The position numbers and the translations under genes were made by a program. A model generated the notes under the pieces. The model ran no database searches. It saw only the letters and a list, made by a program, of their open reading frames with translations, and was not told the origin of the DNA. Of a DNA stretch of 64,000 nucleotides, positions 663 to 16,816 are shown piece after piece (the first letter of the stretch is position 1; every line of letters starts with the position of its first letter). This DNA comes from Mycobacterium adipatum (GTDB taxonomy: Bacteria; Actinomycetota; Actinomycetes; Mycobacteriales; Mycobacteriaceae): NCBI RefSeq assembly GCF_001644575.1, contig NZ_CP015596.1, positions 4,774,001 through 4,838,000 of the forward strand, written 5' to 3'.

Positions 663-671
663 GGTTACTCC

Positions 672-923
672 ATGGCCCCAACTTCTGCAGCCCAGCTGAC
701 CATGTACACCACCTCATGGTGCGGTTTCTGCAATCGGCTCAAGACCGCCCTGAAGGCCGAGGGCATCGCCTGGGACGAGATCGACATCGAGGCCGACCCG
801 TCGGCCGCCGAATTCGTCGGCTCGGTGAACAACGGCAACCACGTGGTACCGACGGTGAAGTTCGCCGACGGGTCCACCCTGACCAACCCGAACATCAAGC
901 AGGTCAAGGCCAAGCTGGGTTAA
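672..923 (+). CDS. mrx1: Mycoredoxin 1 (glutaredoxin-like, mycothiol-dependent)
   Basis: 83-residue thioredoxin-fold protein with the redox motif CGFC at residues 17-20 and the cis-proline segment [10 protein letters not shown] that closes the active site. Mycoredoxins use mycothiol to reduce mixed disulfides on cytoplasmic proteins, doing in actinobacteria what glutaredoxin does with glutathione. The M. tuberculosis counterpart is Rv3198A, also next to uvrD2; the motif there is usually CGYC, so this protein carries a Phe in place of Tyr. The stop codon TAA at 921-923 lies inside the left copy of the 21-bp direct repeat that brackets the accessory block, so the gene is intact but ends exactly at the insertion boundary. 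Confidence 0.93.
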
Positions 924-940
924 TCCAGCGCCGCCCAGGA
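920..940 (+). repeat. Left direct repeat bracketing accessory block 1
   Basis: This 21-base segment matches 14348-14368 at 20 of 21 positions. The shared perfect core is TCCAGCGCCGCCCAGGA (924-940). It overlaps the mrx1 stop codon, while the right copy overlaps the nudC stop codon. Similarity stops sharply on both sides. Confidence 0.8.
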
Positions 941-949
941 CGGCGCTGG
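925..949. terminator. Hairpin between mrx1 and the activator gene
   Basis: Perfect 9-bp stem CCAGCGCCG / CGGCGCTGG with a 7-base loop, placed between convergent stop codons (923 and 967). There is no T-run, as is common for mycobacterial terminators. The left arm lies within the 21-bp direct repeat, so the hairpin was completed by the block's own first bases. Confidence 0.6.
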
Positions 950-966
950 TCGTGGGCGTGCCAGGG

Positions 967-2814
967 CTATGCCGTGATGCCGTAGGCCTTGACCTTGCGG
1001 TACAGACTCGACCGCGACATCCCCAGATGCGCGGCCGCCGCAACCCGGTTGCCGCCGGCATCACGCAGCGCCGTCACGATGGCATCGCGTTCCGCGGATT
1101 CCAGCGGGGTCAACGCGTGGCGGGACGCGGTCTGGCAATAGCCGGGTAGATCGGACTCCTGGATCTCACCCACCGGCCTGCGCCGCACCGCATGCACCAG
1201 CGCCTCGCGCAGCTGAGTGATGTTGCGCGGCCACGAATATCGTGCGATCAGTCGCTGCGCCTCTGGACTGAGGCGCACCTTGCGGGCAGGTGCGATCCCG
1301 CGCAGCAATGCCGCAGTGAGCGCCGTCAAATCATCGGTGCGGCACCGCAGCGGTGGAATCGCTATCGACAACTCGAAATGATGCAGCAGCTGACGAAACG
1401 GCAGATCGGCAGAAGACGCCGAATCGGAACCGGTGGCAACCACCCAGGCCGGGCCCTCCATCGCCGCCACCGCCGAGAAATACGACTCAAGCCGCTCGAC
1501 GCCGTCGGTACTGCCCTGGTCGATGTCACGGATGATGTGCAGTGTCGGATCGGCGGGATCACCGAGCAGTGAGCCGAGGTCGGTGGCCGGGCCCTCGACT
1601 CCGAGCTGGGTGGCGTCCACCGAGATGGCCCGTCCACCCGGATACACCGCATGGAACAACTCGGCCACCAACGTGAACTTTCCCGAACCCGGTTCCCCGA
1701 CGACCAACGCCGGCAGACCCTGTTCGAGAGCCTGACACAAATCCGTGCACGCACGGACCCACGCCGGCGAGGTGCCGCCGGCCATGGAGTCCCGCGAGCG
1801 CGACAAACCGCTGACGATCTGTGATGTCTGCGGCGTTGCGACGGCGACCTGAGGCAACTTCTGCTCGCTGAAATCACCGGGCGACCCCGGCTGACGCACG
1901 GTCACGACATCGGCGATCACCACCATGCCCGCCACCTCCGCCCCCGCCAGGATCCGAGTTCCCCGGATACGGACCAGGCGCTGTCCGGGCAAGGTGATGG
2001 TGTCGCTGACTCGGTCCTTGCCCGCCATCAGGAACATCGCGTGCTCACGGACGACGCGTTGCTCGTCAGCGTCGAACATCTGCTGAGCGGCCGAATTGGC
2101 GACGAAGACCGAATCTCCGAAGGCGAACACCGCCTGTCGCGCGGCCCGCGCGGTGACCTTCAGATAGGTGTCGAAGATGGCCCGCTGCGCCTGCCCGCGA
2201 TCCAGCAGCAGATTGCGTGCGATGTCCTTGGCCGCACTCTTGACCAGGGTGTGCATCAGCGGGCTCCAGGTCGACGAGAGCGTCGAGATGTCGAGTACTC
2301 CCTCCAGCCGGCCCGTCACCGGGTCGATCACCGGAGCGCCGGTACAGGCGAAAAGGTGCAGATTCTCGCTAAAATGCTCGGGGCCCACCACGCTGACCGG
2401 CTGTCCCGCTTCGAATACCGTGCCGATGCCGTTGGTGCCCATCGTCGACTCGGCATAACTGAATCCCGGGGCCAGATGCACCCGATCCAACAGCCTGGCC
2501 ACCGCGTTCGAACTGTCGATGCGCTCCACCACCCGAGCGTTCTTATCGGTCAACGCAATGACCAACGGCATATCCGCAGTATCGATTTCCAACTGTTGTA
2601 GCACCGGTCGCGCGCAGCGGACCAACAGCGAGGCGGTGTCGATCTCATCGGTGAACTGCACGTCCGGGTGCGAAACGTCCACCCCGGCGGCCTGGCTGCG
2701 CTCCCACGATGCGGCGAGCACGTCGGAGACGCCGGCGGCGCCGCGGCCGCCGTACTCCAGGAAATCCGCCCGTGCGGCAGCAACCCGCAGTAACCGCATA
2801 TCGCTGTTGGGCAT
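967..2814 (-). CDS. AcoR/MimR-type transcriptional activator (GAF, AAA+, Fis HTH) lacking GAFTGA
   Basis: 615-residue regulator. An N-terminal GAF-like sensor occupies roughly residues 60-220 (motifs YAESTMGTNGIGT and CTGAPVIDPVTG, typical of AcoR/DhaR proteins). It is followed by an AAA+ domain with Walker A GEPGSGKF near residue 371 and a Walker B-like IIRDIDQ near 428, and a Fis-type helix-turn-helix at the C-terminus (VAAAAHLGMSRSSLYRKVKAYG). The GAFTGA loop that contacts sigma-54 is missing, and mycobacteria are not known to have sigma-54, so it must work with another sigma factor. I chose the ATG at 2814 because AGGAGG sits 5 bases before it; a GTG at 2820 is the alternative. It is divergent from the carboxylase operon and probably activates it, as AcxR does for acetone carboxylase and MimR for propane/acetone oxidation genes. 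Confidence 0.85.
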   Translation of the reverse strand: MPNSDMRLLRVAAARADFLEYGGRGAAGVSDVLAASWERSQAAGVDVSHPDVQFTDEIDTASLLVRCARPVLQQLEIDTADMPLVIALTDKNARVVERIDSSNAVARLLDRVHLAPGFSYAESTMGTNGIGTVFEAGQPVSVVGPEHFSENLHLFACTGAPVIDPVTGRLEGVLDISTLSSTWSPLMHTLVKSAAKDIARNLLLDRGQAQRAIFDTYLKVTARAARQAVFAFGDSVFVANSAAQQMFDADEQRVVREHAMFLMAGKDRVSDTITLPGQRLVRIRGTRILAGAEVAGMVVIADVVTVRQPGSPGDFSEQKLPQVAVATPQTSQIVSGLSRSRDSMAGGTSPAWVRACTDLCQALEQGLPALVVGEPGSGKFTLVAELFHAVYPGGRAISVDATQLGVEGPATDLGSLLGDPADPTLHIIRDIDQGSTDGVERLESYFSAVAAMEGPAWVVATGSDSASSADLPFRQLLHHFELSIAIPPLRCRTDDLTALTAALLRGIAPARKVRLSPEAQRLIARYSWPRNITQLREALVHAVRRRPVGEIQESDLPGYCQTASRHALTPLESAERDAIVTALRDAGGNRVAAAAHLGMSRSSLYRKVKAYGITA

Positions 2815-2837
2815 GGCCACCTCCTGACTCGGTTGTC

Positions 2838-3003: not shown

Positions 3004-4911
3004 ATGGGAACCCTCATCAACATCGACAACGGCGGAACGCTGACCGACATCTGTGTCTGGGACGGCGGTGCGTTCACCTTCACCAAGACCCTGACAACCC
3101 CCCACGATCTGTCGGAATGCCTGTTCAGCGGTATCGAGAAGGCGTCGACCGCCCTCTACGGCGCGGCAGACACCACCCGGCTGCTACACGCCACCGAACA
3201 CATCCGCTACTCCACCACGCAGGGCACCAACGCCCTGGTGCAGCGCCGCGGACCGATGATCGGCATCCTCACCACGCTGGACACCCTCGACACCCGGATG
3301 CAGAACACCGCCGCAGAGGAGAAGCTGTTCACCGGGTTGGTGGCCGATCGATTCCTGACGATCGACCCCGAGGCCGAGGACTTCGACTTCGATGCCGTCC
3401 AGAGGGTGAACCGGCTCACCACCCTTGGGGCGGCCCGCGTCGTCATCGCTGCGGGCAGTGCCGACGAGGAACGACGACTGCGGCACATACTGCTGCGCAA
3501 GTTCCCCCGCCACCTGCTGGGCTCGGTGCCGCTGCTGTACAGCTGGGAACTGGCCGGCGACCGCGACGACGCACGACGAGTGTGGTCGTGCGTGGTCAAC
3601 GCGTTCTTACATCCGACGATGGAGCGGTTCCTCTACGGGGCCGAACGTCGCCTGCAGGACTACAAGGTGGTCAACCCGCTGCTGGTCTACCGTAACGACG
3701 GCGCCTCCTCCCGGGTGGCGAAATCAGTTGCCCTCAAGACATATTCGTCCGGACCTCGCGGAGGTCTGGAGGGCACCGCGGCAATGGCGAAGGTATACGG
3801 GCTGTCGCACGCACTGATGATGGACATCGGGGGCACGACAACCGACGTCGGCGTCGTGGAGGACGGATCCGTGGCGGTGTCGGACCGGGGCGCGATCGAA
3901 GGCGTGCAGATCTCCTATCCGATGAGCGACGTATCCTCGGCGGGCGTCGGGGGTTCCTCGGTCATCCAGGTCATCGACGGCAACATCACCGTTGGCCCGC
4001 AGTCCGTCGGTGCCGCACCCGGGCCGGCCTGCTTCGGATTCGGCGGCAAGCAAGCCACGATCACCGACGTCAACCTGCTGCTGGGGGTCCTCGACGCCGA
4101 CACCTACCTCGACGGCACCTTCACCCTCGACGCATCCAGATCCCGCGCGGTGATCACCGAAACGATCGCGGCCCCGCTCGGAATCTCGCTGGAGGAAGCC
4201 CTGATCCGGATGGAGCATGCCTACTTCCAGGCGTTGTCGGCGTCGTTCGCGCACCTCGTCGGTGACGGCACCACGCTGCTGGCATTCGGCGGGGCCGGAC
4301 CGATGAGCGCCACCGGCGCGGCCCGCCTCGCCGGTGTCAAGAAGGTGCTCGTCCCTCGCACCGCGGCAGTGTTCTCCGCCTTCGGGATCTCGTTCTCCGA
4401 TATCGGCAAGACCTACGAGGTGCTGATCGACGAGCCCAGCGCCGCCGCCGCCCGCGCGACGCACGGCGCACTGCTGGCCCGCGCCGAGCGAGACATGTTC
4501 CAGGAAGGGTATGCGCTGGCCGACTGCCAGACGACCTGGCAGCTGCTGGTCGAAAACCCCGACGACGCAACGGTGTCGCAGCTGCCGTATGAGCCCGGTG
4601 ACGAGGTCGACTATCCCGGCGCCGTGGTGTCGCTGCGGTTGAATGCCGCTGCGCCCCTGCCTCACCCGAACCTCGAGGCCGATGTCCCGATGTCGCCGCT
4701 CGCAGCCCCGGCACAGGGAACGCGCGCGGTTCGTTCGACCGCCGACCGGATCGACGACGTCACCGTGCATGTCCTCGATGAGCTCTCACCCGGACATACC
4801 GGTGCGGGGCCGGCCATCATCGAGGGCCCGTTCTTCACCGCTCGGGTCCTGCCGGACTGGTCATTCCGGGTCACGGCGGCCGGCGACCTGATGCTCACCG
4901 ACAACCACTGA
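3004..4911 (+). CDS. Ketone carboxylase subunit, hydantoinase A (HyuA)-like, first copy
   Basis: 635-residue member of the hydantoinase/oxoprolinase A family, which has an ASKHA ATPase fold. The first phosphate-binding loop is DNGGTLTD at residues 8-15 and the second is DIGGTTTD at 274-281, followed by AGVGGSSV. In acetone and acetophenone carboxylases HyuA-type subunits use ATP to activate bicarbonate and/or the ketone. It is the first gene of a tight operon and is divergent from the activator. At 635 residues it is shorter than the second HyuA copy (709 residues). Two HyuA subunits of unequal size plus a small subunit resemble the five-subunit acetophenone carboxylase rather than three-subunit acetone carboxylase. 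The true substrate cannot be read from the sequence. Confidence 0.85.
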   Translation: MGTLINIDNGGTLTDICVWDGGAFTFTKTLTTPHDLSECLFSGIEKASTALYGAADTTRLLHATEHIRYSTTQGTNALVQRRGPMIGILTTLDTLDTRMQNTAAEEKLFTGLVADRFLTIDPEAEDFDFDAVQRVNRLTTLGAARVVIAAGSADEERRLRHILLRKFPRHLLGSVPLLYSWELAGDRDDARRVWSCVVNAFLHPTMERFLYGAERRLQDYKVVNPLLVYRNDGASSRVAKSVALKTYSSGPRGGLEGTAAMAKVYGLSHALMMDIGGTTTDVGVVEDGSVAVSDRGAIEGVQISYPMSDVSSAGVGGSSVIQVIDGNITVGPQSVGAAPGPACFGFGGKQATITDVNLLLGVLDADTYLDGTFTLDASRSRAVITETIAAPLGISLEEALIRMEHAYFQALSASFAHLVGDGTTLLAFGGAGPMSATGAARLAGVKKVLVPRTAAVFSAFGISFSDIGKTYEVLIDEPSAAAARATHGALLARAERDMFQEGYALADCQTTWQLLVENPDDATVSQLPYEPGDEVDYPGAVVSLRLNAAAPLPHPNLEADVPMSPLAAPAQGTRAVRSTADRIDDVTVHVLDELSPGHTGAGPAIIEGPFFTARVLPDWSFRVTAAGDLMLTDNH

Positions 4912-4942
4912 TCCAAACCCGCACTCAGAAAGGAGGACTCCC

Positions 4943-5371
4943 ATGCGAGTCCCCATGACCGAATACCTCGTGATCGACCTCGACTCCGAACGCTGGGTGT
5001 GCCGGGTGTGCGCCCACGACATGGGCTCGGCACACGAGAACTACAAGCCGGGAACGCTGGTGTACGACCGTGATCCCCGCGAGATCCACCAACCCATCAT
5101 CGACCCCGACCGCTACGAGTACACCTTCAGCCCCGACCCCACGTACTGCCGGATCCTGGAGTACTACTGCCCCGGCTGCGCGACCCAGATCGAATGCGAG
5201 TACCTCCCCCCGGGGCACCCGCCGGCCGTCGACATCCTCGTCGACATACCGGCCCTGCGAAAGCAATGGGAACAACGCGGCATCGATGCCGAAGCGGCGC
5301 ACAACTACGGCCCCGGCGAGGACGCCCAGAAGTACACCGCAGCACTCAAGGCCGCCGGCCACACCCACTGA
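4943..5371 (+). CDS. Small zinc-ribbon subunit of the ketone carboxylase (acetone carboxylase gamma-like)
   Basis: 142-residue protein matching the small subunits of acetone and acetophenone carboxylases. Two Cys pairs, C20-x-x-C23 and C76-x-x-C79 (CPGC), form an apparent zinc ribbon, and the middle region is rich in aromatic and acidic residues. Small subunits of this family are structural and hold the large subunits together. A very strong ribosome site (AAAGGAGG) precedes the ATG at 4943; a second ATG four codons in is less well placed. It lies 31 bases after the first HyuA gene and 25 bases before the second, consistent with one transcript. Confidence 0.82.
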   Translation: MRVPMTEYLVIDLDSERWVCRVCAHDMGSAHENYKPGTLVYDRDPREIHQPIIDPDRYEYTFSPDPTYCRILEYYCPGCATQIECEYLPPGHPPAVDILVDIPALRKQWEQRGIDAEAAHNYGPGEDAQKYTAALKAAGHTH

Positions 5372-5396
5372 CCCGAGAATCAGGAGATCCACTGGC

Positions 5397-7526
5397 ATGA
5401 AACGAATTTCGGTCGACATCGGTGGCACGTTCACCGACTGCTTCTTCGTCTGGGACGACATCTACGTCGACGCCAAGGCGCTCACCACCCATCACAACCT
5501 CGCCATCGGGTTCAACGAGGCCCTGGACCTGGCGTGCAAACGCGCCGGGTTGGACCGCTCGACCGTGCTCTCCGAGGTCGATTCGGTGCGATACGCAACC
5601 ACGCTCGGCACCAACGCACTCATCGAGCGCAACGGTCCGAAGGTGGCCGCGATCGTCACCCACGGCTTCGAGGACACCATCCCGCTGTCGCGCGGCCGAG
5701 GCTACGGCGAGGGCTTGGACTACGCCATGCAGCAGAATCTGCCCGCTGCGGAACGACCAGAACCCCTGGTGCCGCGGCAGCTAATCCGATCAGTCAAGGA
5801 GCGGATCAACTCTGCCGGCAAGGTGGTCGCACGGCTGGACCCCGAGGATGTCCGCACCGTGGTCCGTGAACTTGTCGATGCCGGCGCCGAAGCCATCGTG
5901 GTGTCGTTGGTCAACGCCACCGAGAATCCCGAGCACGAACTGGCGATCCAAGAGATCATTCTCGACGAGTTCCCGCCGCACGAACTCGGTGCCATCCCGA
6001 TGCTGCTCGGCCACCAGGTGTCGGGACGCAAGGGCGAATACGTCCGTGCCACGTCGACGATCATCGACGGCTATCTGCACGAGATCATGTTCCACGCGCT
6101 GGCCCAGCTGTCGGCCAACCTGCGCGACTTCGGTTACGACAAGCCGATGTTGGTGATTCACAACTCCGGTGGCATGGCGCAGATGAACTCCACCGATGCT
6201 CTGCAGACCATCCACTCCGGCCCCATCGCCGGGGTGGGAGCCGCCGAGCATCTCTCGAACGAGACCGGGCTCGGCCATGTCATCGCCACCGATATGGGGG
6301 GCACATCCTTCGATATCGGGCTGGTGCCCGAGGGCGGGGTCAAACACTACGACTTCCTGCCCACCATCGACCGCTGGCTGGTGTCGGTGCCGATGGTGCA
6401 TCTGGACACCCTGGGTGCCGGCGGCGGATCGATCGCGAGCTACGACCGTATCCACAACTCCGTCAAGATCGGCCCGAAGTCGGCCGGCTCCAACCCGGGC
6501 CCGGCATGTTACGACCGAGGCGGATTGAAGCCGACCGTGACCGACGCCGACCTGGTGCTGGGCTACCTCGACCCGGACAACTACGCCAACGGCTATATCA
6601 AGCTCAACCGCAAGCGGTCGATGTTCGCCATCGAGGAGGAGCTCAGCGACCCGCTCGATATGGACCCGATCGAGGTCGCACGCGTGATCAAGGACGGTGT
6701 CGACGAGCAGATGGCCATCGGCATCGGCAAGGAGCTGCGGGTGCGCGGCTACCTGCCGGAGGACTTCACCATGCTGGCCTACGGCGGCAACGGGCCGCTG
6801 CACGCCTGTGGTGTTGCCCGGCACGCCGGTATCAAACGTGTACTGGCACCACCCTTCTCATCGGTGTTCTCGGCATGCGGCGCGGGCAACATGAAGCAGT
6901 TGCACTTCCACGAGCGAGGCGTGCACGTCACCATGTACAACGCCACCACTCGGGCGCTGTACGACAACTACGACGAGTTCAATGCCGTCGTCGCGGAACT
7001 CGAGGCGCGCGGCCGCGAGGACCTGGTGCGGCAGGGATTCTCCGAGCTGGACGTCCAGTACCGCCTCGAGCTGGACATGCGCTACGGCAACCAGCTGCTG
7101 ACTCAGGCGGTGGCACTGTCGGATATCCACCGGATCTCCGGCGTCGGCGATGTGCTGGACATCATCAAGACGTTCGGCGATGTCTACAGTCACCGTTTCG
7201 GAGCGTCATCGGCGGCACCGGAAGCCGGAATCCGTTGCAGCACCATTCGAGTGGCTTCCTACGTGGACGGCGACGTGGTGAACTTCGAACCGCTCGAAGC
7301 CGGTGGGCAACGTAGCGCCCCGGAGCCGGTCGGACATCGCAGCGCCCACTTCATCGGCATTGATGAGCCGATCGACACCCCGGTGTTCGACGACAGCGCC
7401 CTGGCCCCCGACCGGGTCATTGCCGGCCCGGCGATCGTGACCACCGAGAACACCACCTTCCTGGTCGAACCCGGTTGGCGACTGGAGCCCACGGCCCAGG
7501 GCGCTGTCTGGTTCCTGCAGGACTGA
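5397..7526 (+). CDS. Ketone carboxylase subunit, hydantoinase A (HyuA)-like, second copy (acetone carboxylase beta-like)
   Basis: 709-residue HyuA-family ATPase with phosphate loops DIGGTFTD (residues 7-14) and DMGGTSFDIG (from residue 299), then GAGGGSIA. Its length is close to that of acetone carboxylase beta subunits. It should bind and hydrolyse ATP to drive carboxylation of the ketone. I placed the start at the ATG at 5397, because MKRISVDIGG is the usual beginning of the family and a ribosome site (CAGGAG) lies upstream; the open frame extends further upstream but that part overlaps the small-subunit gene. It is followed after 22 bases by the HyuB-like gene. Confidence 0.87.
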   Translation: MKRISVDIGGTFTDCFFVWDDIYVDAKALTTHHNLAIGFNEALDLACKRAGLDRSTVLSEVDSVRYATTLGTNALIERNGPKVAAIVTHGFEDTIPLSRGRGYGEGLDYAMQQNLPAAERPEPLVPRQLIRSVKERINSAGKVVARLDPEDVRTVVRELVDAGAEAIVVSLVNATENPEHELAIQEIILDEFPPHELGAIPMLLGHQVSGRKGEYVRATSTIIDGYLHEIMFHALAQLSANLRDFGYDKPMLVIHNSGGMAQMNSTDALQTIHSGPIAGVGAAEHLSNETGLGHVIATDMGGTSFDIGLVPEGGVKHYDFLPTIDRWLVSVPMVHLDTLGAGGGSIASYDRIHNSVKIGPKSAGSNPGPACYDRGGLKPTVTDADLVLGYLDPDNYANGYIKLNRKRSMFAIEEELSDPLDMDPIEVARVIKDGVDEQMAIGIGKELRVRGYLPEDFTMLAYGGNGPLHACGVARHAGIKRVLAPPFSSVFSACGAGNMKQLHFHERGVHVTMYNATTRALYDNYDEFNAVVAELEARGREDLVRQGFSELDVQYRLELDMRYGNQLLTQAVALSDIHRISGVGDVLDIIKTFGDVYSHRFGASSAAPEAGIRCSTIRVASYVDGDVVNFEPLEAGGQRSAPEPVGHRSAHFIGIDEPIDTPVFDDSALAPDRVIAGPAIVTTENTTFLVEPGWRLEPTAQGAVWFLQD

Positions 7527-7548
7527 CCACAAACGTAAGGACTAGAAG

Positions 7549-9861
7549 ATGACAACAGTCAACGAAAGCCCGGCCGGCACGCTCACCGACGAAGAACAGC
7601 AGTGGGTGGACCGCTTCATGGACGAGACCACCCTGTTTCTCGGCCCAGACCGCGAAATCATGCGCAGTCACAGCATTTCCGACCGATCGGATCATGAAGA
7701 GCTGGCCATCGCCGCAGGCGTGGACCGGCTACAGGTCGAACGCATCCGCAAGCGCATCGCGGGCGCCCTCGACGAGGGTTATGAGATGTGCGAGGCCCAA
7801 GGTGCCGCCCCCGGCGCCAAATGGGGCGACCTCACCACCGCCATCTACACCGCCTCCGGCGATGTCTCGTACCTGTCCTGCCACGGGGTGATCGCATTCA
7901 GTGCGATCCTGCACCACCCAATCCGGTACATCATGAAGTACTGGAAGGACGAACCCACCGTCGGCGTCAACCCGGGTGACGGATTCATCCACAACGATGC
8001 CCGGTACGGCAACGTGCACAACACCGACCAGTCGATGATCATGCCGATCATGCGCGACGGCGAGATCATCGCCTGGGTGGCCGCCACCATCCACGAAGGC
8101 GAGAACGGGGCGTGCGAACCCGGTGGCATGCCCTCGGGTTCGGAGACGGCGTTCGACGACGGGCTGAGGATGAGCCCGTTCAAGATCGTCGAGCGCGGCG
8201 AGTTGCGCCGAGATCTGCTGACCTTCCTGCAGCATTCGGTGCGCGACCCCAAACTGCAGCTCGCAGACCTCAAGGTGAAGATCACCGCGGTTCGCAAGAT
8301 CATGGAGCGCATCGACGCCGTGATCGACGAGGTCGGTGTCGACACCTTCGTGGGCGCGCTGCGCACCACGGTCGAGGATGTCGACGTCGAAGTCCGCCGC
8401 AGGATCGCCGAACTCCCCGACGGCACGTACCGCTTCGACCAGTTCATGGACAGCACCCTCAAGGAGAACATTCTCATCAAGTTCGCCTGCACGATCACGG
8501 TCAATGGTGACCACATGACCGTGGACCTGCGCGGCACCGGTCCCGAGATCCTCAATCGGGCCATCAATTCGCCGCTGTGCTCGGTGAAATCGATGATGAT
8601 GCAGGCCATTCTGGCGTTCTGGTGGCCCGACCTGCCCCGCTGCACCGCCGCGATGAGCTGCATCGACATCATCTCCGACGAAGGTACGTGGGCCGACGCA
8701 TCCTACGATGCCCCGATGGGCCAGTCGCTGCAGGCCTCATTCCGCGGATTCTCCTGCATGCAGGCGCTCTACAGCAGAATGTCCTTCTCCACCCCGCACA
8801 AGTACAGCAACGTGGTGTCCAACTGGTTCAACCAGATCAACACCTTCCTGTGGGGCGGCATCACCCAGCACGGGGACATGGTCGGCAACCTGTGCGCCGA
8901 TCTCAACGGGATGCCCGGCGGCGCAAAACCGTTCCGTGACGGCGAAGATGCGATCTCCCCGCTGTTCTGCGCCATGGCCGATACCGCCGAGCAGGAGGTG
9001 ATGGAGGAAGAGGTGCCCTTCATGCAACTCGTCGCCAAGCGTCTGATCCGCGACAACATGGGATTCGGGAAGTTCACCGGCGGAATGGGTTACGAGATGA
9101 TCGTCGCCGCCGAAGGTACACCCCAGTGGGGCTTCATGACGGTGACGTCGGGGGCCAAGTTTTCTTCGATCTACGGCATGTACGGCGGCTACGGTTGCGG
9201 AACCTATCCGCTGGCGATGGTCAAGGGCACCAACGTCTACGAGCACTTCCGGACGGACAACAAGAAGTTCGACCTGTCGATCGAGAAGGTCATGAACGAG
9301 CGTCCCTTCCCGGACGGTCGATACTCCACCTCGCACATGGGCCTGCAGTTCGACCTGGCCAAGGACGGCGAGCTGTACATGATCAGTCAGGGTGCCGGCG
9401 GTGGATACGGCGACCCACTGGAGCGAGCACCGGAATCGGTGATCCACGATGCCGAACTGGGCCGAATCAGCCAGCAGGTGGCCGAGGATATCTTCGGCGT
9501 TCGCTACGATCCCGCGACGTTCCGCATCGACGCGGCCGGCACCGAGGCCGCTCGGGCCGCCGCACGCAAGCAACGCCTGCAGCGGGGTAAGCCGTTCGCG
9601 GAGTTCTGCGCGGAGTTCGTCACACCGGAGCCTCCGAAGGATCTGCCGTACTACGGATCCTGGGGAACGTGGACGCCAGAAAGACAGGACATCACCGCCA
9701 CGGTGTACTCCATCGACGGTCCCGAGCGGGTATGTGCGCCTCTGGCGGAACTTCCGATCGTGATGGTCCCGGATCGTCGCGAGGTCAAGATCGGCAAGCT
9801 CGAGGCCCGCATCGCCGAACTGGAATCCAAGTACGGCGAGCACGTCGCCCGACTCACCTGA
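7549..9861 (+). CDS. Ketone carboxylase catalytic subunit, hydantoinase B (HyuB)-like (acetone carboxylase alpha-like)
   Basis: 770-residue HyuB-family protein, the size expected for acetone carboxylase alpha subunits. The segment HNDARYGNVHNTD (residues 148-160) has H148, D150, H157 and D160 in the region that holds the Mn-binding His/Asp residues of acetone carboxylase alpha, so this subunit probably carries the carboxylation site. The C-terminal third includes GGGYGDPLERAP, a well conserved HyuB segment. It is co-transcribed with the two HyuA-like genes and the small subunit. The predicted product is a 3-oxoacid: acetoacetate if acetone is the substrate, which fits the CoA-transferase and thiolase genes further on. 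Larger ketones or acetophenone remain possible. Confidence 0.88.
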   Translation: MTTVNESPAGTLTDEEQQWVDRFMDETTLFLGPDREIMRSHSISDRSDHEELAIAAGVDRLQVERIRKRIAGALDEGYEMCEAQGAAPGAKWGDLTTAIYTASGDVSYLSCHGVIAFSAILHHPIRYIMKYWKDEPTVGVNPGDGFIHNDARYGNVHNTDQSMIMPIMRDGEIIAWVAATIHEGENGACEPGGMPSGSETAFDDGLRMSPFKIVERGELRRDLLTFLQHSVRDPKLQLADLKVKITAVRKIMERIDAVIDEVGVDTFVGALRTTVEDVDVEVRRRIAELPDGTYRFDQFMDSTLKENILIKFACTITVNGDHMTVDLRGTGPEILNRAINSPLCSVKSMMMQAILAFWWPDLPRCTAAMSCIDIISDEGTWADASYDAPMGQSLQASFRGFSCMQALYSRMSFSTPHKYSNVVSNWFNQINTFLWGGITQHGDMVGNLCADLNGMPGGAKPFRDGEDAISPLFCAMADTAEQEVMEEEVPFMQLVAKRLIRDNMGFGKFTGGMGYEMIVAAEGTPQWGFMTVTSGAKFSSIYGMYGGYGCGTYPLAMVKGTNVYEHFRTDNKKFDLSIEKVMNERPFPDGRYSTSHMGLQFDLAKDGELYMISQGAGGGYGDPLERAPESVIHDAELGRISQQVAEDIFGVRYDPATFRIDAAGTEAARAAARKQRLQRGKPFAEFCAEFVTPEPPKDLPYYGSWGTWTPERQDITATVYSIDGPERVCAPLAELPIVMVPDRREVKIGKLEARIAELESKYGEHVARLT

Positions 9862-9919
9862 ACCTGGTGGCGGTCCCGGATGTCCCCCGGGGCCGCCACC
9901 AACCCGGAAAGGCAGTTCC

Positions 9920-10708
9920 ATGAGCGCGAAATCGCTGGCAGTCGCCACCCCGAGTGGCCGCAGCCGTGCGCTGTTGATCGACGATGCCGAATACTCCACC
10001 ACGGTGATCCGTCAGGGATCGCCGATTCCGTGGACCGACACCACTATGGCGACAACACATTTCGACCAAGTCAGGGCGCTATTGAATCCCGATGCGCTGT
10101 GGGTCGACATGGGGCGTTTGTTCCTCGCGCATACCGATTCCCGCCCGGACCTTGTCACGGCGATGGGAGCGCGCACCCGCGTCGGCTATCCGCTGCGCAC
10201 CCTGTTGACCGACTCCGACGTGCTCGCCGCCAGTCGCGAGATGATGGAAACGGTGGCGAAAACCGCACGGCGTCAACTGCTCCTGCATGTACCGTCGCCC
10301 GCGTCATGGCTGGCGACCGCCCACGAGATCGCGGGCAATCCCCTCTCCGAGGTGGATGCCGACCGCGCCGACAGCGCATCGATGTACATTGCCGAGTGGC
10401 TGGGACAGCTCGGCTCGCTGCCGGTCGCGCTGGTCCTCCTGGACGCTCGAAATGCGTCGCTGGCAGAAACCCTGGCGGACTATACGGCCGTGACCAATGT
10501 GTCATCGCACTTCGGTTGGACACCGGCGATGTGGCAGGACGAGCGAATCGACACGGCCCAAGACCACGCCAGTATCGGCCTGATCGGCGCAGGGTTCTGG
10601 ACGGGAGATACCGACGCCCCCGTGCCCGACGCCGATGTGCTCGTTACAACGATCCCGGCATCGGCGTCACCGGAACGTGTTCTCGATCAACTCGCAAAAC
10701 TCAGCTGA
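9920..10708 (+). CDS. Fifth protein of the carboxylase operon, function unknown
   Basis: 262-residue soluble protein that I do not recognise from sequence. It has no signal peptide or membrane segment and alternates predicted strands and helices (for example RALLIDDAEYS near the start and GSLPVALVLLDAR in the middle), hinting at an alpha/beta or barrel fold. It follows the HyuB gene by 58 bases with a GGAAAGG-like ribosome site and ends the operon. Its place and size match the fifth subunit of the acetophenone carboxylase operon, which is required for activity there but not part of the core complex; that parallel is an inference from position, not from a motif. Confidence 0.6.
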   Translation: MSAKSLAVATPSGRSRALLIDDAEYSTTVIRQGSPIPWTDTTMATTHFDQVRALLNPDALWVDMGRLFLAHTDSRPDLVTAMGARTRVGYPLRTLLTDSDVLAASREMMETVAKTARRQLLLHVPSPASWLATAHEIAGNPLSEVDADRADSASMYIAEWLGQLGSLPVALVLLDARNASLAETLADYTAVTNVSSHFGWTPAMWQDERIDTAQDHASIGLIGAGFWTGDTDAPVPDADVLVTTIPASASPERVLDQLAKLS

Positions 10709-10799
10709 TACCGAGTGCATCGCCGAACTGTAATCAGGAAGGGAAAGTTCGAGTAGCCGCCGTCTGGAACGCGATTTCGGCGGTGGGCAGGCCGAGGTA

Positions 10800-11567
10800 C
10801 TAGCGGCGCAGGCGTAGCGACAGTCGGTGCGCCTGCGCCAGTAGCATTTCGCCCAGCACCGGGCGTCGATCGGGACGAAACCTGGTCTCCACTCCGGTCA
10901 GACTCAACGCCCACGCGGGCTGACCATATCGGTCGAAGACAGCGGCGCCGATTCCCCAACTGCCCTCGACCAACAGGGCAGGGTTGACCGCATAACCGGT
11001 GGCCCGGGTCGAGATCATCCGCTCACGAATCATGGATTCGGAATGCGCAGAGCCCCAATTTATTTCAGGCGAGACACGGGAAAAGAAGTCGTCCGCCTCC
11101 CGTTCGGGGAGGTGACTGAGAATGGCCAGGCCGGCCGATGCGACACCCAGCGGGAAACGGATGCCGACGTGCAGGACGTGCGACCGCAGCGGAAAACTGC
11201 CTTCCTGGGCATACACGCAGACCGTCTCGTCGCCTCGCCGAGCCGACAGGAACGCACTCTCCCCTGATTCCCGCGCCAGCTCAGCCACGATGTCACGCCC
11301 CTGCGGGACGATGTCGTACCGGTTGGCCGCGCTCGTTCCCAGTAGGTACAGTTCCGGCCCCAAGGTCCACCGTCCCGTCTTGCGGTCACGGTCGACAAGG
11401 CCCTCCTCACCGAGGGCCGCCAGCAGTCGATGGACCGTCGGCCGTGCCAGCCCGGCGACTCGGGCCACCTCGGTGGTGGAGGCACCATCCGGTTCGTTCG
11501 CCGCCACCGCGCGCAACAGCGCGCCGGTGCGTGCAATCACGCCGAGGACGTTCGTGGTCTCACTCAC
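10800..11567 (-). CDS. IclR-family transcriptional regulator
   Basis: 255-residue regulator with an N-terminal winged helix-turn-helix (STTEVARVAGLARPTVHRLL) and an IclR effector domain (ETVCVYAQEG and FPLGVASAGLAIL). IclR proteins control catabolic genes, often for aromatic or ketoacid degradation, and PcaR controls pcaIJ-type CoA-transferases. This gene is divergent from just such a CoA-transferase pair. I chose the GTG at 11567 because a near-perfect inverted repeat (11580-11600) lies just upstream and would otherwise sit inside the coding region; an ATG at 11618 would add 17 residues. The effector is unknown, perhaps a 3-oxoacid. Confidence 0.85.
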   Translation of the reverse strand: MSETTNVLGVIARTGALLRAVAANEPDGASTTEVARVAGLARPTVHRLLAALGEEGLVDRDRKTGRWTLGPELYLLGTSAANRYDIVPQGRDIVAELARESGESAFLSARRGDETVCVYAQEGSFPLRSHVLHVGIRFPLGVASAGLAILSHLPEREADDFFSRVSPEINWGSAHSESMIRERMISTRATGYAVNPALLVEGSWGIGAAVFDRYGQPAWALSLTGVETRFRPDRRPVLGEMLLAQAHRLSLRLRR

Positions 11568-11579
11568 AGCCTCATGATA

Positions 11580-11600
11580 TGCGTTCACTGAATGGACGCA
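11580..11600. promoter_or_regulatory. Candidate IclR operator
   Basis: TGCGTTCA (11580-11587), five bases, then TGGACGCA (11593-11600): arms complementary at 7 of 8 positions. It lies just upstream of the likely IclR start and faces the divergent CoA-transferase operon. It is followed directly by the self-complementary ATCGATCGAT. Confidence 0.4.
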
Positions 11601-11733
11601 TCGATCGATCACGACCATTGCGCGAACAGCTTCGACCTAATCGATGCTGATTTGTTCTCGTCTGCCACATGGCAATAGAGAATCTATGACCGAGACAGCA
11701 GCAGTTTGATCAATGGACGAAGATGGTGATCAC

Positions 11734-12501
11734 ATGGCCTCGAAGGTGTACTCCAGCGCCGCAGAAGCCGTCGCCGATATCGGCGACGGCGCCCGAATCG
11801 CGGTCGGCGGATTCGGCCTGTGCGGCATCCCGGACGCACTCATCCAAGCTGTCGCCGATACGACGGCGACCGGTCTGGAGGTGTTCTCCAACAACTGCGG
11901 CGTTGATGACCACGGCCTCGGCATACTGTTGTCGCTGGGCCGTATCCGGCGCGTCACCGCCTCCTACGTCGGGGAGAACAAGGAGTTCGCGCGCCAGTAT
12001 CTGTCCGGCGAGCTGGAGGTCGAGTTGACGCCGCAGGGAACCCTCGCCGAGCGACTGCGAGCGGGCGGGGCGGGCATTCCGGCGTTCTACACCCCCGCCG
12101 GTGTGTCGACACCGGTCGCGGACGGGGGCATTCCGTGGCGATATGACTCCGACGGATCGGTGCTGATCGCCTCGCCTCCGAAGGAGACCAGGGTCTTCGG
12201 TGACCGTCGCTATGTGTTGGAAGAGTCCATCCGCGCCGACTTCGCACTGGTCCACGCTCGTCTCGGCGACACCGCAGGCAACCTCGTGTTCGAGAAGACG
12301 GCGATGAACTTCAACCCGCTGGCCGCAATGGCGGGCAAGGTCACCATCGCGCAGGTGGAGACCCTCGTCCAGCCCGGAGAGATCGACCCCGGCTCGGTGC
12401 ACCTCCCCGGTGTGTTCGTCCAGCGCGTGGTGCACACCGGGCCCCAGGACAAACGCATCGAGAAGCGCACAATGCGCACCGATGAGGAAGCGAAGCGATG
12501 A
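11734..12501 (+). CDS. 3-oxoacid CoA-transferase subunit A (acetoacetate/SCOT type)
   Basis: 255-residue alpha subunit of a family I CoA-transferase. It shows the [13 protein letters not shown]oA-binding segment and the [19 protein letters not shown] block typical of succinyl-CoA:3-oxoacid transferases. With subunit B it moves CoA from succinyl-CoA to a 3-oxoacid. Next to a ketone carboxylase the obvious acceptor is acetoacetate; a 3-oxoadipate (PcaI) role is the alternative. I prefer the ATG at 11734 ([13 protein letters not shown], with GGTGAT before it) over the in-frame ATG at 11713. It overlaps subunit B by four bases. Confidence 0.88.
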
Positions 12502-13148
12502 CCACACCCCTGCTCGGCTGGTCCCGCAATCAGATGGCCGCCCGGGCGGCCGCCGAAATGGTCGACGGCGAGTACGTCAACCTCGGCATCGGCCTGCCGA
12601 CCCTGATTCCCGACCACCTCGACCCCAGCGTCCGAGTCACCCTGCATTCCGAGAACGGGATCCTGGGCACCGGTCCATACCCGGTCGAGGACGCCGTCGA
12701 CGCCGATCTGATCAACGCGGGCAAGGAGACGGTCACCGTGAATCCCGGTGCGGCGTACTTCGACTCGGCAACCTCGTTCGGCATGATCCGCGGCGGCCAC
12801 ATCGATACCGCCGTGCTCGGCGCCATGCAGGTCTCCCGGTGGGGCGATCTCGCGAACTGGATGATCCCAGGCAAGATGGTCAAGGGCATGGGCGGCGCCA
12901 TGGATCTCGTGCACGGTGCCGACCGGGTCATCGTGCTGATGGAACACACCGATAGGTCCGGGCAATCCAAGATTGTCCATTCCTGCACGCTGCCACTGAC
13001 CGGGTCCCGTGTCGTCGACCGCATCATCACCAACCTCGCCGTCCTGGATGTCAGTGAGCGCGGAACGCTGGTGCTGCGCGAGCTGGCACCCGGGGTGGGC
13101 CTCGCGGACCTGGCCGAGGCGACCGATGCCCCGCTGGACCTGTCATGA
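12498..13148 (+). CDS. 3-oxoacid CoA-transferase subunit B
   Basis: 216-residue beta subunit. The catalytic glutamate that forms the CoA thioester is E52 in LHSENGILG. The N-terminal [14 protein letters not shown] and the [10 protein letters not shown] segment are also typical. It overlaps subunit A (ATGA) and is itself overlapped by the thiolase start, so the three are one translationally coupled unit. Together with subunit A it should convert the carboxylase product to its CoA ester in the cytoplasm. Confidence 0.9.
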
Positions 13149-14326
13149 CGGCGACAACGTCGGTCCTGGTGGCGGGCGCCCGCACCCCGGTCGGCCGGCT
13201 GATGGGCTCGCTTGCGGCCGTCAGCGCCGCCGAACTCGGCGGGATCGCCATCGCGGCCGCACTCGCCAAAGCGGGTATCGAGGCCGACCGGGTCCAGTAC
13301 GTGATCATGGGTCAGGTGCTCACCGCCGGCGCGGGACAGCTCCCGGCGCGCCAGGCCGCCGTCGCCGGTGGCATCCCGATGACGGTGCCCGCCCTCACCG
13401 TGAACAAGGTCTGCTTGTCCGGAATCGACTCGATCATCCTGGCCGACCAGATGATTCGTTCAGGTGCCGTTGATGTGGTGGTCGCCGGTGGGCAGGAGTC
13501 CATGACGCAGACGCCCCATCTGCTGCCGAAATCGCGCGCGGGCTACAAGTACGGCGACGTCGCGATCATCGATCACCTCTCCTACGACGGACTGCGGGAC
13601 GTCTTCACCGACGAGGCGATGGGCGCATTGACCGAAGATGCCAACGATGTCGCCCGCGTCCACCAGGACGAGTTCGCTGCGCGCTCCCACCAGCGCGCCG
13701 CCGCAGCATGGCGGGACGGGATCTTCGACGACGAAGTCGTGCCGGTCACGCTCCGGCCACGACGTGGCGAACCGGCGTCGTTCAGGCGCGACGAGAGCGT
13801 CCGGGCGGAAACGACCAGCGAATCGCTGGCCGCACTGCGTCCGGCATTCCGGCCCAACGGCACCATCACGGCCGGCAACGCCTCCCCGATCAACGACGGC
13901 GCGGCCGCCGTGGTGGTGATGAGCCGACGCAAAGCCGAGAATCTCGGTCTGCCCTGGATCGCCGAGATCGGTGCCCACGGCATGGTCGCGGGACCCGATT
14001 CCACCCTGCAACTGCAACCGGCGAACGCCATCGCGGCGGCCTGTACGCGGGACGGCCTGGACCCCGGCTCACTGGACCTTGTCGAGATCAACGAAGCATT
14101 TGCGGCCGTCGGCATCGCCTCGACGGCAGCGCTCGGAATCGACCCCGCCAAGGTGAATGTCAACGGTGGAGCAATCGCCATCGGACATCCCCTCGGCATG
14201 TCCGGGACCCGTATCACCCTGCACCTGGCCCTCGAGCTGGCCCGCCGCGGAGGTGGGACCGGCGCCGCCGCACTGTGTGGCGGGGGTGGGCAGGGCACTG
14301 CTCTGGTGTTGCGCGCCAACCCGTAG
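13145..14326 (+). CDS. Acetyl-CoA acetyltransferase (thiolase), acetoacetyl-CoA type
   Basis: 393-residue thiolase with the acyl-accepting Cys90 in VNKVCLSG, the catalytic His in [14 protein letters not shown] and the second Cys in [10 protein letters not shown]. The block [15 protein letters not shown] and the overall length resemble biosynthetic/degradative acetyl-CoA acetyltransferases more than the 3-oxoadipyl-CoA thiolase PcaF. It would split acetoacetyl-CoA into two acetyl-CoA, completing a route from acetone to central metabolism. It starts within the last codons of CoA-transferase subunit B (4-base overlap) and is convergent with nudC. Confidence 0.9.
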
Positions 14327-14347: not shown

Positions 14348-14368
14348 TTAGTCCAGCGCCGCCCAGGA
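14348..14368 (+). repeat. Right direct repeat bracketing accessory block 1
   Basis: Matches 920-940 at 20 of 21 positions. It encodes the last six codons of nudC plus its stop on the minus strand (SWAALD, stop), so this copy is presumably the original target and the left copy the duplicate. Confidence 0.8.
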
Positions 14369-15271
14369 TTCGATGATCTCCCGGGCGATCGAGATGGATC
14401 CCGGCAGCAGCAGACGCGACGGGGAATCGCTGCTCCAGTCCCCGTTCTCGAGCGCGTCGCGGATTTCGGCGCGGGTGAACCAGTGCGCCTCGGCGATCTC
14501 GCCGTCGTTGAACGCGAACGGTTGTTCGGGGTCCCCGAGCGCGTGGAAGCCCACCATCAACGAGCGCGGGAACGGCCAGGGCTGACTGCCCAGGTACTGC
14601 ACATCGGTCACGTCCAGGCCGACCTCTTCGGCGATCTCGCGGACCACGCAGGACTCGAACGACTCCCCCGCCTCCACGAAACCGGCCAGGATCGAGAACA
14701 TCCGCTCCGGCCAGACACCCTGACGGGCCAGCACCGCGCGGTCATGACCGTCGTGCACCAGACAGATCACCGCGGGGTCGATGCGCGGGAATTCCTCGTG
14801 CCCGTTGTCGGGGTTGAGCCGCGACCAGCCGGCCTTGATCGACTTGGTGGGTGACCCGTCGACCGGGCTGTAGCGGGCGCTGTCATGCCAGTTCAGCAAT
14901 GCCGTCGCGGTGGACACCAGCTGCGCGCTGGCATCGTCGAAGATCGCGCCGGCACGGCGCAGGTCGAGCACCTCGGATTCGACGGTCGGGTCCTCGGGTG
15001 CCTCCAGGCCCGCGCGGATCGCCCAGACGTGCCTGCCGTCGGCGAGGCGGCCCAGGAACACCGCCTGCTCGGGCGGGGCGTCACCGAGGCCGGTGGCCTT
15101 GCCGAGCACGACGCTGCCACCGGCGATCAGCACCTGGTTGCGCCGGTCCACCCGCAGCACCAGCGCGTCGGCCCAGCCGGCGATGGCGGCGTCGATATCG
15201 GTGCGCAGGGTGTCTGCGCGGTCCGCGCCGACCCGGGACAGCAGGGGCACATTGCGCAGCGTGAAACTCAA
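14348..15271 (-). CDS. nudC: NADH/NAD+ diphosphatase NudC
   Basis: 307-residue Nudix hydrolase that splits NAD(H) into NMN(H) and AMP. It has the full Nudix box (GFVEAGESFESCVVREIAEEVGL region, residues about 195-217) and, shortly after it, the NudC-specific signature SQPWPFPRS. The start appears to be TTG at 15271, since an in-frame stop lies just upstream and AAGGAAG sits at a usable distance; the M. tuberculosis protein (Rv3199c) is slightly longer at the N-terminus. It follows the K+ channel gene by six bases, so the two are probably co-transcribed. Confidence 0.92.
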   Translation of the reverse strand: MSFTLRNVPLLSRVGADRADTLRTDIDAAIAGWADALVLRVDRRNQVLIAGGSVVLGKATGLGDAPPEQAVFLGRLADGRHVWAIRAGLEAPEDPTVESEVLDLRRAGAIFDDASAQLVSTATALLNWHDSARYSPVDGSPTKSIKAGWSRLNPDNGHEEFPRIDPAVICLVHDGHDRAVLARQGVWPERMFSILAGFVEAGESFESCVVREIAEEVGLDVTDVQYLGSQPWPFPRSLMVGFHALGDPEQPFAFNDGEIAEAHWFTRAEIRDALENGDWSSDSPSRLLLPGSISIAREIIESWAALD

Positions 15272-15277
15272 GGTCGG

Positions 15278-16369
15278 TTACCGGTCTTCCTTGGAGCGGA
15301 TGTAGAGCAGCCGGTCGGACAGCTCGAGTGCGTCTACCCGTTCGTCGTCCACGCGAAGCAGTTCGCCGTTGCGGACGACACCGAGCACGATGTCGGTGAG
15401 ATGGCGCGGCGAGCCGCCCACCTCCTTGGGTTCCACCTGCCGCTCGGCGATCGCGAAGCCCGCGTCGGGGGTCAGCAGGTCCTCCATCATCTCGACGACG
15501 CTCGGGGTCTGGGTGGCGATACCCAGCAGCCGTCCCGCGGTCTCCGACGTCACGACGGTGGTGTTGGCCCCGGACTGTTTGAGCAGATGCTGATTCTCGG
15601 CCTCCCGGACGGCGGCGATGATGTTGGCGCGCGGGTTCAGCTCCCGCGCGGTCAGCGTCACCAGCACGGCGGTGTCATCGCTGTTGGCGGCCACGATGAT
15701 CGACTTGGCGTGCTGAGCCGAGGCCAGCCGCAGGATCTCCGAGTCGGTCGCGCTGCCCCGCACGGTGACCAGACCGGCGTTCTTTGCGCGTTCCAGGGCG
15801 GTGGGGTTGTTCTCGACGACGACGATATCGGCGGGTGCGACATCGTCACCGATCATCGCGGCCACCGCGGTGCGGCCCTTGGTTCCGTAGCCGACGACGA
15901 CGGTGTGGTTGCGCACGCTTTTCCTCCATCGCTGAATCTTCAGCGCCTGACGCGACTGGGTGGTGAGGGTCTCGACGGTGGTGCCGATCAGCACGATCAG
16001 GAACGCCACCCGCAGCGGCGTGATGACCAGCACGTTGATCAGGCGAGCCGATGGCGACACCGGGGTGATATCGCCGTAACCGGTGGTCGAGAGCGAGACC
16101 GTGGCGTAGTACAGGCAGTCCAGGAACGACAGCGGGTCGTCCGGGTTGGGAGCGGAGTCGATATCGCGGTACCCGTGCCGGTCGATGTAGACGATCAGCA
16201 CCGCGGCGAACAGCGCGCCGAGCGCCAACAGCACGCGGGTGAAGATCCGTCGCCACGGGCTGACGAACTTCTCCGGGATGTTGAGGACATCGACGAGGTC
16301 GGCGTCATGACGCGACGTCAGGTTCTCGTTCACCGCCGCCAGCCGCCGGCGCAATCTACCTTTGGCCAC
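15278..16369 (-). CDS. Potassium channel protein with TrkA-N (RCK) domain
   Basis: 363-residue membrane protein. Two transmembrane helices flank a pore loop with the K+ selectivity filter TTGYGD near residues 97-102. A cytoplasmic RCK/TrkA-N Rossmann domain begins with VVVGYGTKGRTA and has acidic ligand residues downstream (VVENNPTALERAKNAG), and a TrkA-C-like tail follows. Such channels open in response to nucleotides, Ca2+ or K+ through the RCK ring. The equivalent in M. tuberculosis is Rv3200c, in the same place next to nudC. The start is GTG. Confidence 0.9.
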   Translation of the reverse strand: MAKGRLRRRLAAVNENLTSRHDADLVDVLNIPEKFVSPWRRIFTRVLLALGALFAAVLIVYIDRHGYRDIDSAPNPDDPLSFLDCLYYATVSLSTTGYGDITPVSPSARLINVLVITPLRVAFLIVLIGTTVETLTTQSRQALKIQRWRKSVRNHTVVVGYGTKGRTAVAAMIGDDVAPADIVVVENNPTALERAKNAGLVTVRGSATDSEILRLASAQHAKSIIVAANSDDTAVLVTLTARELNPRANIIAAVREAENQHLLKQSGANTTVVTSETAGRLLGIATQTPSVVEMMEDLLTPDAGFAIAERQVEPKEVGGSPRHLTDIVLGVVRNGELLRVDDERVDALELSDRLLYIRSKEDR

Positions 16370-16411
16370 GTTTCACCGTTCGGCGCGGGTTGGGCACGCC
16401 ACAATGAAACC

Positions 16412-16816
16412 ATGACACCCCCCACATCCGGAGATCAGCAGCAAGCAAGTGCCACCCGCGCCGTCCGGATGGGCGGATGGCTCGTCGGCATGGGCGTCCT
16501 GCACTTCGTGGCGCCCAAGCCGTTCGACACCATCGTGCCTGCCGAGCTGCCCGGCAGCGCCCGCCTGTACACGCACGCCTCCGGGGTCGCCGAGGTCGCC
16601 GCCGGCGCCCTGCTGATCGCACCGAAAACCCGCAAGGTCGGGGCGCTGGCGTCGATCGTGCTGTTCCTCGGGGTGTTTCCCGCCAACGTCAACATGGTGC
16701 GGTTGTGGTCCCAGGAGCCGGCCAAGCCGGTCTGGATGCGCATCGGCGCGTGGGCCCGGCTGCCGTTGCAGATCCCGATGATCGCCCAGGCCTACAAGAT
16801 CTACCGCAGCGCCTGA
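16412..16816 (+). CDS. DoxX-like small membrane protein
   Basis: 134-residue hydrophobic protein with about four membrane segments (VGMGVLHFVAP, AEVAAGALLIAP, LASIVLFLGVFPANVNM and a C-terminal helix). The pattern HFVAPKPFD...PANVNM resembles the DoxX/DoxD family of small inner membrane proteins, some of which act in redox protection, but no specific role can be assigned. It is divergent from the K+ channel gene and convergent with adnB, whose 3' end it overlaps by 16 bases. Confidence 0.75.
   Translation: MTPPTSGDQQQASATRAVRMGGWLVGMGVLHFVAPKPFDTIVPAELPGSARLYTHASGVAEVAAGALLIAPKTRKVGALASIVLFLGVFPANVNMVRLWSQEPAKPVWMRIGAWARLPLQIPMIAQAYKIYRSA

Follow-up and report, generated by a model that had tools for sequence, protein, structure and literature searches.

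Positions 3004 to 10708 of the window, a stretch of 64,000 nucleotides from Mycobacterium adipatum (contig NZ_CP015596.1, positions 4,774,001 to 4,838,000 of the forward strand), carry five genes that probably encode a carboxylase for small aliphatic methyl ketones, acetone being the likeliest, with the architecture of acetophenone carboxylase (Apc). The five genes have the content of the apc operon, belong to a class of their own, include a homologue of the Apc epsilon subunit and keep intact kinase motifs; the ketone pocket is changed, and genes for a 3-oxoacid coenzyme A (CoA)-transferase are linked to the class. A small aliphatic methyl ketone, with acetone first, is suggested by the agreement of the pocket, the CoA-transferase linkage, an acetoacetate-CoA ligase at the locus of a Cupriavidus relative, and the likeness of the window CoA-transferase to a pair that accompanies an acetone carboxylase (Acx) in Ancylobacter. 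The genes of the locus are as follows.

967..2820, minus strand: divergent regulator of 617 residues (Pfam GAF, AAA_lid_14, HTH_8)
3004..4911, plus strand: alpha', an ApcA-like HyuA of 635 residues, putative second ATP-kinase subunit (NCBIfam, PDB 5l9w_b, alpha' clade)
4943..5371, plus strand: gamma, an ApcB/AcxC-like zinc-ribbon protein of 142 residues (PF08882, 5l9w_C, four Cys)
5397..7526, plus strand: alpha, an ApcC-like HyuA of 709 residues, proposed ketone kinase (5l9w_B, pocket signature)
7549..9861, plus strand: beta, an ApcD-like HyuB of 770 residues (PF02538, 5l9w_A, tree, metal-ligand residues)
9920..10708, plus strand: epsilon, predicted ApcE homologue of 262 residues with a barrel like that of uroporphyrinogen decarboxylase (URO-D), without a Pfam or NCBIfam match
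10800..11567, minus strand: IclR-family regulator (IclR_C 1.2e-19, HTH_IclR 2.8e-11; scanned as 10800-11618)
11713..12501 (start may be 11734), plus strand: 3-oxoacid CoA-transferase subunit A (TIGR02429)
12498..13148, plus strand: 3-oxoacid CoA-transferase subunit B (TIGR02428)
13145..14326, plus strand: thiolase of 393 residues (Thiolase_N 1.6e-90, NCBIfam)

The order alpha'-gamma-alpha-beta-epsilon is that of apcABCDE, and the five genes are separated by 31, 25, 22 and 58 bases. The alpha gene starts at about 5397, instead of 5070; the fifth gene is the frame at 9920-10708, overlapped in another frame by a longer open reading frame (ORF), 9880-10803, that matches no Pfam or NCBIfam model. 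The two CoA-transferase genes and the thiolase gene are joined by four-base overlaps. Since the IclR gene lies antisense between the carboxylase and CoA-transferase genes, positions 3004-14326 comprise at least two transcription units, and a single operon over this span is ruled out. The sequence-only reading of this DNA had proposed a five-subunit, Apc-like layout coupled to the downstream genes; the layout stands (two unequal HyuA proteins, a zinc-ribbon protein, a HyuB protein and a fifth protein homologous to ApcE), and the coupling differs from the proposal, the CoA-transferase and thiolase genes forming a separate unit behind the IclR gene.

The four core subunits find their best matches in Apc. 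Pfam assigns Hydantoinase_A to both HyuA proteins (3.6e-54 and 1.8e-72), Acetone_carb_G to gamma (3.4e-39) and Hydantoinase_B to beta (6.1e-84). The best NCBIfam models along the gene order are ApcA (323.8 bits; equivalog cut-off 1250), ApcB (137.7; 250), ApcC (547.9; 1500) and ApcD (324.4; 1500), all below their cut-offs. Among PDB chains, alpha' best matches 5l9w_b, alpha matches 5l9w_B (8.4e-154; acetone carboxylase beta 3.9e-87), beta matches 5l9w_A (3.3e-88), and gamma matches 5l9w_C (5e-35; acetone carboxylase gamma chain 8.6e-07). Gamma has Cys pairs at 20/23 and 76/79, which are the four conserved Cys of Apc. Beta keeps the metal-ligand set D94/H157/D160/H182, of which H157, D160 and H182 align with ApcD H123, D126 and H148 (residue numbers from excerpts of PMC5214803 and PMC5543143; the other papers cited here are likewise represented by excerpts); because the His/Asp/His ligands are common to Acx and Apc, they are not diagnostic. 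The best matches and the shared gene order would also suit a carboxylase for acetophenone or another aryl methyl ketone that merely stands beside 3-oxoacid genes, as would the naming of a Rhodococcus ruber Chol-4 cluster, likened to the window by description only, as apc1-4 plus fisR (PMC6498646). Against an aryl substrate, the NCBIfam scores reach only 22-55% of the equivalog cut-offs.

Phylogeny places the window proteins apart from Apc as well. In a beta tree of 44 rows, including five Acx and five hydantoinase rows (with long-branch warnings for the hydantoinases and one Acx row), the window class (support 100/99), Apc (100/100), Acx (100/100) and the hydantoinases (100/99) each form a group, and the window class is the sister of Apc (95/85), its beta lying outside the ApcD clade; this position, too, counts against an aryl methyl ketone. 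An earlier HyuB tree with a single acetone carboxylase did not resolve Acx, Apc and the window class and also drew long-branch warnings. A HyuA tree of 49 rows unites the alpha' proteins of the two classes in a single clade (100/100), distinct from either alpha group; all alpha and alpha' proteins split from Acx at 97/99, and Acx (100/100) contains no window proteins; the rows for L113 and L052 (L numbers denote loci of the comparison), labelled alpha, place as alpha'. The single alpha' clade indicates that the alpha/alpha' duplication predates the class split, and thus that the five-subunit plan is older than the separation of Apc and the window class. By these trees the window protein set is a distinct, well-supported class beside Apc. 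The sequence-only reading had called it a distinct actinobacterial class; distinctness is borne out by tree support, and the restriction to actinobacteria is not, as members occur in Neorhizobium, Cupriavidus and the haloarchaeon Halorientalis.

The same trees bear on the view that the enzyme is an ATP-dependent hydrolase, akin to hydantoinases, oxoprolinases or lactamases, to which further subunits have been added. The HyuA and HyuB families are shared with such enzymes, and source databases often name these proteins hydantoinase; gamma, alpha' and epsilon are nevertheless all present, and the hydantoinases form a separate group (100/99) in the beta and HyuA trees alike, which makes a hydrolase highly improbable. 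A hydantoinase operon is rejected by both trees, so that the grouping with hydantoinases named beforehand as grounds for abandoning the carboxylase reading was not found.

The fifth protein is, on its predicted fold and on profile evidence, an ApcE-family homologue with a URO-D-like fold. Its AlphaFold model (pLDDT 96) has ApcE (9fou) as the sole PDB match below E 1e-3, profile-profile comparison gives 96% (controls 0.1-0.6%), and intermediate sequences also show the link; its identity to ApcE is about 15%. Pfam and NCBIfam give no match for it, and a profile of the fifth-protein family run against PDB sequences did not find ApcE (best 0.1, unrelated); the link is visible only by fold search, profile-profile comparison and intermediate sequences. 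Counted at E 1e-8 in loci with at least 900 bases downstream, an ApcE-like ORF lies near ApcD in 71 of 73 Apc-class loci (none in L059 and L087, Pelotomaculum), and epsilon is found in 18 of 20 window-class loci (none in L114; in L008 only at weaker E). Four of the 92 counted ORFs lie away from beta: L019 and L020 (about 1.1 kb off) and L009 and L088 (upstream). The latter are two haloarchaea with epsilon behind alpha' (L009:4437-5405, L088:6176-7255), and the L009 copy bears the annotation of a uroporphyrinogen decarboxylase family protein. The ApcE-like ORFs of the Apc-class loci (L010-L089 and L009) are more widespread than is suggested by the 2017 account, which in the excerpted text places close ApcE orthologues only in Nevskia and Rubrobacter and proposes a closing or channelling role for epsilon (PMC5214803).

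Both window HyuA proteins retain the nucleotide (ASKHA) motifs and GxxPGP, so the scheme proposed for Apc, in which ketone and bicarbonate are activated separately, is the most likely one here. The fingerprint [RK]ERxDxxG distinguishes alpha, occurring in 21/21 window-class and 62/76 Apc-class alphas, from alpha', where it occurs in 0/21 and 0/63, respectively.

The two classes also differ in the proposed ketone pocket of alpha. In Apc, acetophenone has been placed tentatively near alpha Leu81, Phe281, Asn282, Pro285, Ile333, Gln344 and Thr345 (PMC5214803); the corresponding residues of the window alpha are T-I-H-P-I-H-L. For the counts, alpha was picked by scoring HyuA ORFs against alpha and alpha' profiles; among 81 Apc-class loci, five lack alpha and seven more are cut, leaving 69 readable. 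Residue 281 is Phe in 41 and Tyr in 28 of these; in the 21 window-class alphas it is Ile (19), Val (1) or Met (1). Residue 282 is His in 21/21 window-class alphas versus Asn or Ser in 69/69 of the Apc class, and residue 81 is Thr in 21/21 versus Leu, Met or Tyr. The replacement of aromatic 281 and Asn282 throughout the window class is a further point against an aryl methyl ketone. Three acetone carboxylases taken for comparison have Ile, Ile and Met at 281, and one of the three carries His344 and Leu345, as does the window class.

Downstream activation genes also divide the classes. The sequence-only reading had called the neighbours acetoacetate/acetoacetyl-CoA type; for the CoA-transferase this is upheld by scores above cut-off (subunit A, TIGR02429, 228.5 bits, cut-off 128.5; subunit B, TIGR02428, 322.4 bits, cut-off 243.55), and for the thiolase it is likely. 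The latter is best matched by PRK08235, acetyl-CoA C-acetyltransferase (449 bits, cut-off 526), and its score stays under the equivalog cut-off for each of the 25 models listed out of 43. With loci of less than 5 kb downstream set aside (23/81 Apc-class; 1/21 window-class, L120), at least one CoA-transferase subunit is encoded somewhere on the stretch in 13 of 20 window-class loci (11 of them with both subunits) versus 4 of 58 Apc-class loci (2 of them with both). The genes stand directly behind epsilon in L107, L109, L111, L112 and L118 (1 base behind in L118). An IclR gene intervenes in the window and in L103, L105 and L106; L104 has the genes on the far side, and in Neorhizobium they are convergent. 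Single subunits detected behind epsilon in L004 (15271-15840; Rhodococcus RHA1 plasmid pRHL2, two ORFs) and L110 (7112-7669) are possibly remnants. In Cupriavidus N-1 an acetoacetate-CoA ligase gene (TIGR01217, 802.7 bits, cut-off 520.9) overlaps the end of epsilon. Both this ligase and the CoA-transferases of the 13 loci fit the earlier expectation of neighbours suited to acetoacetate. In the Ancylobacter three-subunit acetone carboxylase operon (L133), CoA-transferase A and B genes follow, and window subunits A and B are 53% and 62.5% identical to this pair (for comparison, 45% and 50% with one other CoA-transferase of the same genome, L122). The window genes scanned include no CoA ligase, and the relatives have recurring CoA-transferases and one acetoacetate-CoA ligase; taken with the scores, the tree and the pocket, this makes an aryl methyl ketone an unlikely substrate.

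The CoA-transferase, thiolase and IclR genes might instead be a chance neighbour, for example a beta-ketoadipate module (pcaIJF-pcaR), a view that concerns the neighbours and is compatible with other readings of the carboxylase. The antisense IclR gene does separate the modules, and IclR, CoA-transferase and thiolase genes together are a usual pca arrangement. Set against this resemblance, the thiolase scores 284.5 with PcaF (cut-off 597), module and carboxylase occur together in L103-L106, with the module on the other side in L104, another CoA-transferase pair stands directly behind epsilon in the five loci named above, and the M. adipatum genome holds two other CoA-transferase B genes above cut-off. 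An unrelated module is accordingly improbable.

A stronger competitor, and one that overlaps the acetone reading, is a carboxylase that takes an aliphatic ketone of larger size or with functional groups: butanone, 2-pentanone, acetol, or a keto intermediate from the breakdown of alkanes or ethers. The resulting 3-oxoacid would likewise pass through the CoA-transferase. Such CoA-transferases and thiolases often take several 3-oxoacids, a breadth that favours this competitor; so do a zinc alcohol dehydrogenase gene behind the CoA-transferase in L107 and the presence of His282 in none, and of His344 in one, of the three acetone carboxylases compared. The Cupriavidus ligase, on the other side, favours acetoacetate as the product of that member. 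A larger ketone is thus a possibility to be taken seriously, at clearly lower probability than acetone or a similarly small ketone.

Several observations weigh against the small-ketone reading. The authors of the Apc pocket assignment themselves call it tentative (PMC5214803). The contrasts in the pocket and in CoA-transferase linkage each go back to a single deep split in the tree and hence represent few independent events. No CoA-transferase was detected in 7 of the 20 testable window-class loci (L005, L007, L008, L108, L113, L114 and L119); Halorientalis L008 and L119 carry general acyl-CoA ligases, and L113 and L114 have ligase-like ORFs. TIGR02428 and TIGR02429 cover 3-oxoadipate CoA-transferases too, and in the window the CoA-transferase genes belong to a different transcription unit from the five. 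The trees carry long-branch warnings among Acx and hydantoinase rows, and the class is patchy: a beta search at E 1e-150 has hits in 10 of 198 genomes sampled from the genus, 5 of 397 from the order and 3 of 396 from the phylum (samples drawn from larger groups, the M. adipatum genome included in each count).

The M. adipatum genome has one HyuB and two HyuA matches, and most of the named proteins closely related to its beta and fifth proteins come from Mycolicibacterium and Mycobacterium. One actinobacterial genome (G315) holds two basal window-class operons, L113 and L114; ligase-like ORFs lie close to them, and some of their pocket residues differ. The five window genes have a G+C content of 62.8-66.8% versus 69.3% for the window from 14348 on, and the locus is flanked by the 5' part of a UvrD-type helicase gene (window 1-966) on one side and NUDIX and ion-channel genes on the other. 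Window 14348-23198 contains these NUDIX and ion-channel genes and two UvrD/PD-(D/E)XK genes; NUDIX and ion-channel genes also lie downstream in L103 and L106 and were not found in the 19.5-kb stretches of seven other loci of the genus. A search for PF02332 (propane/phenol monooxygenase) gave no match in the M. adipatum genome and none in the control genomes either, so no absence is claimed.

The divergent regulator (967..2820) combines a GAF domain, a degenerate AAA domain and a Fis-type helix-turn-helix; it is AcoR/AcxR-like and lacks the GAFTGA motif, the loop that contacts sigma-54. It is divergent in 9 of 9 other loci of the genus that were mapped (74-96% identity) and in L112 (62%), is 45% identical to a divergent RHA1 gene, and aligns over nearly its full length, at 24% identity, with the regulator that accompanies acetone carboxylase in Ancylobacter. 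A two-subunit hydantoinase-type operon on a Rhodococcus pseudokoreensis plasmid (L138:625-9162) also has a divergent GAF-domain gene, with genes for a CoA transferase, enoyl-CoA hydratase and degradative hydroxymethylglutaryl-CoA reductase nearby.

Under the acetone reading, the enzyme would be ATP-dependent and biotin-independent. The divergent regulator probably senses the ketone or its alcohol. Alpha would phosphorylate the enol of the ketone and alpha' would phosphorylate bicarbonate, each kinase using its own ATP (2 ATP to 2 ADP, as in Apc), with beta, through its metal-ligand set, and gamma holding the core. Alpha' may swing onto the alpha-beta-gamma core, and epsilon, with its URO-D-like barrel, may dock and close or channel the space in which CO2 derived from carboxyphosphate meets the enol-phosphate. 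The product would be a 3-oxoacid (acetoacetate), which the linked CoA-transferase would activate and the thiolase would then split into two acetyl-CoA.

Likenesses to known systems run in two directions. With Apc (ApcABCDE of Aromatoleum aromaticum; PDB 5l9w for the core, 9fou for epsilon) the window shares its gene order, a pair of HyuA kinase subunits that stem from one common duplication, a four-Cys gamma, the beta metal-ligand set and the epsilon fold; it differs in being a separate sister clade, in its longer beta (770 versus 684 residues), in a pocket without the Phe/Tyr-Asn pair, in the low identity of epsilon, and in CoA-transferase neighbours where Apc has a benzoylacetate-CoA ligase. 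With Acx (AcxABC of Xanthobacter and Aromatoleum; PDB 5svb, 5m45) it shares the probable substrate class, Ile at pocket position 281, an operon-linked 3-oxoacid CoA-transferase (Ancylobacter) and a distantly related regulator, whereas Acx has one HyuA, the order hyuA-hyuB-gamma with gamma last, no alpha' or epsilon, and subunits in separate clades. ATP-dependent hydantoinases, 5-oxoprolinases and caprolactamase have the HyuA and HyuB families in common with the window, but consist of two subunits, hydrolyse instead of carboxylating, and lie in a distant clade.

Loci that look alike by described gene content have been given different names. A nine-gene acxABCD-scoAB-fadA cluster with two hypothetical genes was described as an acetone pathway in Mycobacterium cosmeticum strains (PMC6456199), and the R. 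ruber cluster was called acetophenone carboxylase (PMC6498646), both from gene annotation; the M. cosmeticum cluster, too, is likened to the window by description only. An Apc core operon has been reported in Paraconexibacter (PMC11737030), and a putative alkyl-phenyl ketone carboxylase in strain GD02 (PMC8461187). No biochemical study of the window class was identified among the papers listed by searches of the open-licence PMC literature, and the passages cited here report no assay of it. The finding is also a warning for annotation, in that the names acetone carboxylase, acetophenone carboxylase and hydantoinase are all in use for look-alike loci. The family of the fifth protein, which sources call hypothetical, gains an identity.

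A more far-reaching proposal, rather doubtful at present, is that the window class adds a third kind to the ketone carboxylases. It would handle acetone-class substrates with the two-kinase, five-subunit Apc machine (2 ATP to 2 ADP), not the single-kinase plan of Acx, and its epsilon would be no mere clamp but would hold the chamber where CO2 and enol-phosphate are joined. If so, a decarboxylase fold related to uroporphyrinogen decarboxylase would serve carbon-carbon bond formation, and alpha residues 81, 281, 282, 344 and 345 would be the main determinants of which ketone each of the two classes accepts. In 2017 only one Apc-type enzyme had been characterised, and the excerpted account held that no substrate-discriminating consensus could be extracted (PMC5214803). 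The window class offers a clean contrast to Apc, with the same architecture and different pocket and downstream activation genes, and so makes it testable whether the two-kinase machine with epsilon is needed by aromatic ketones or is a general solution.

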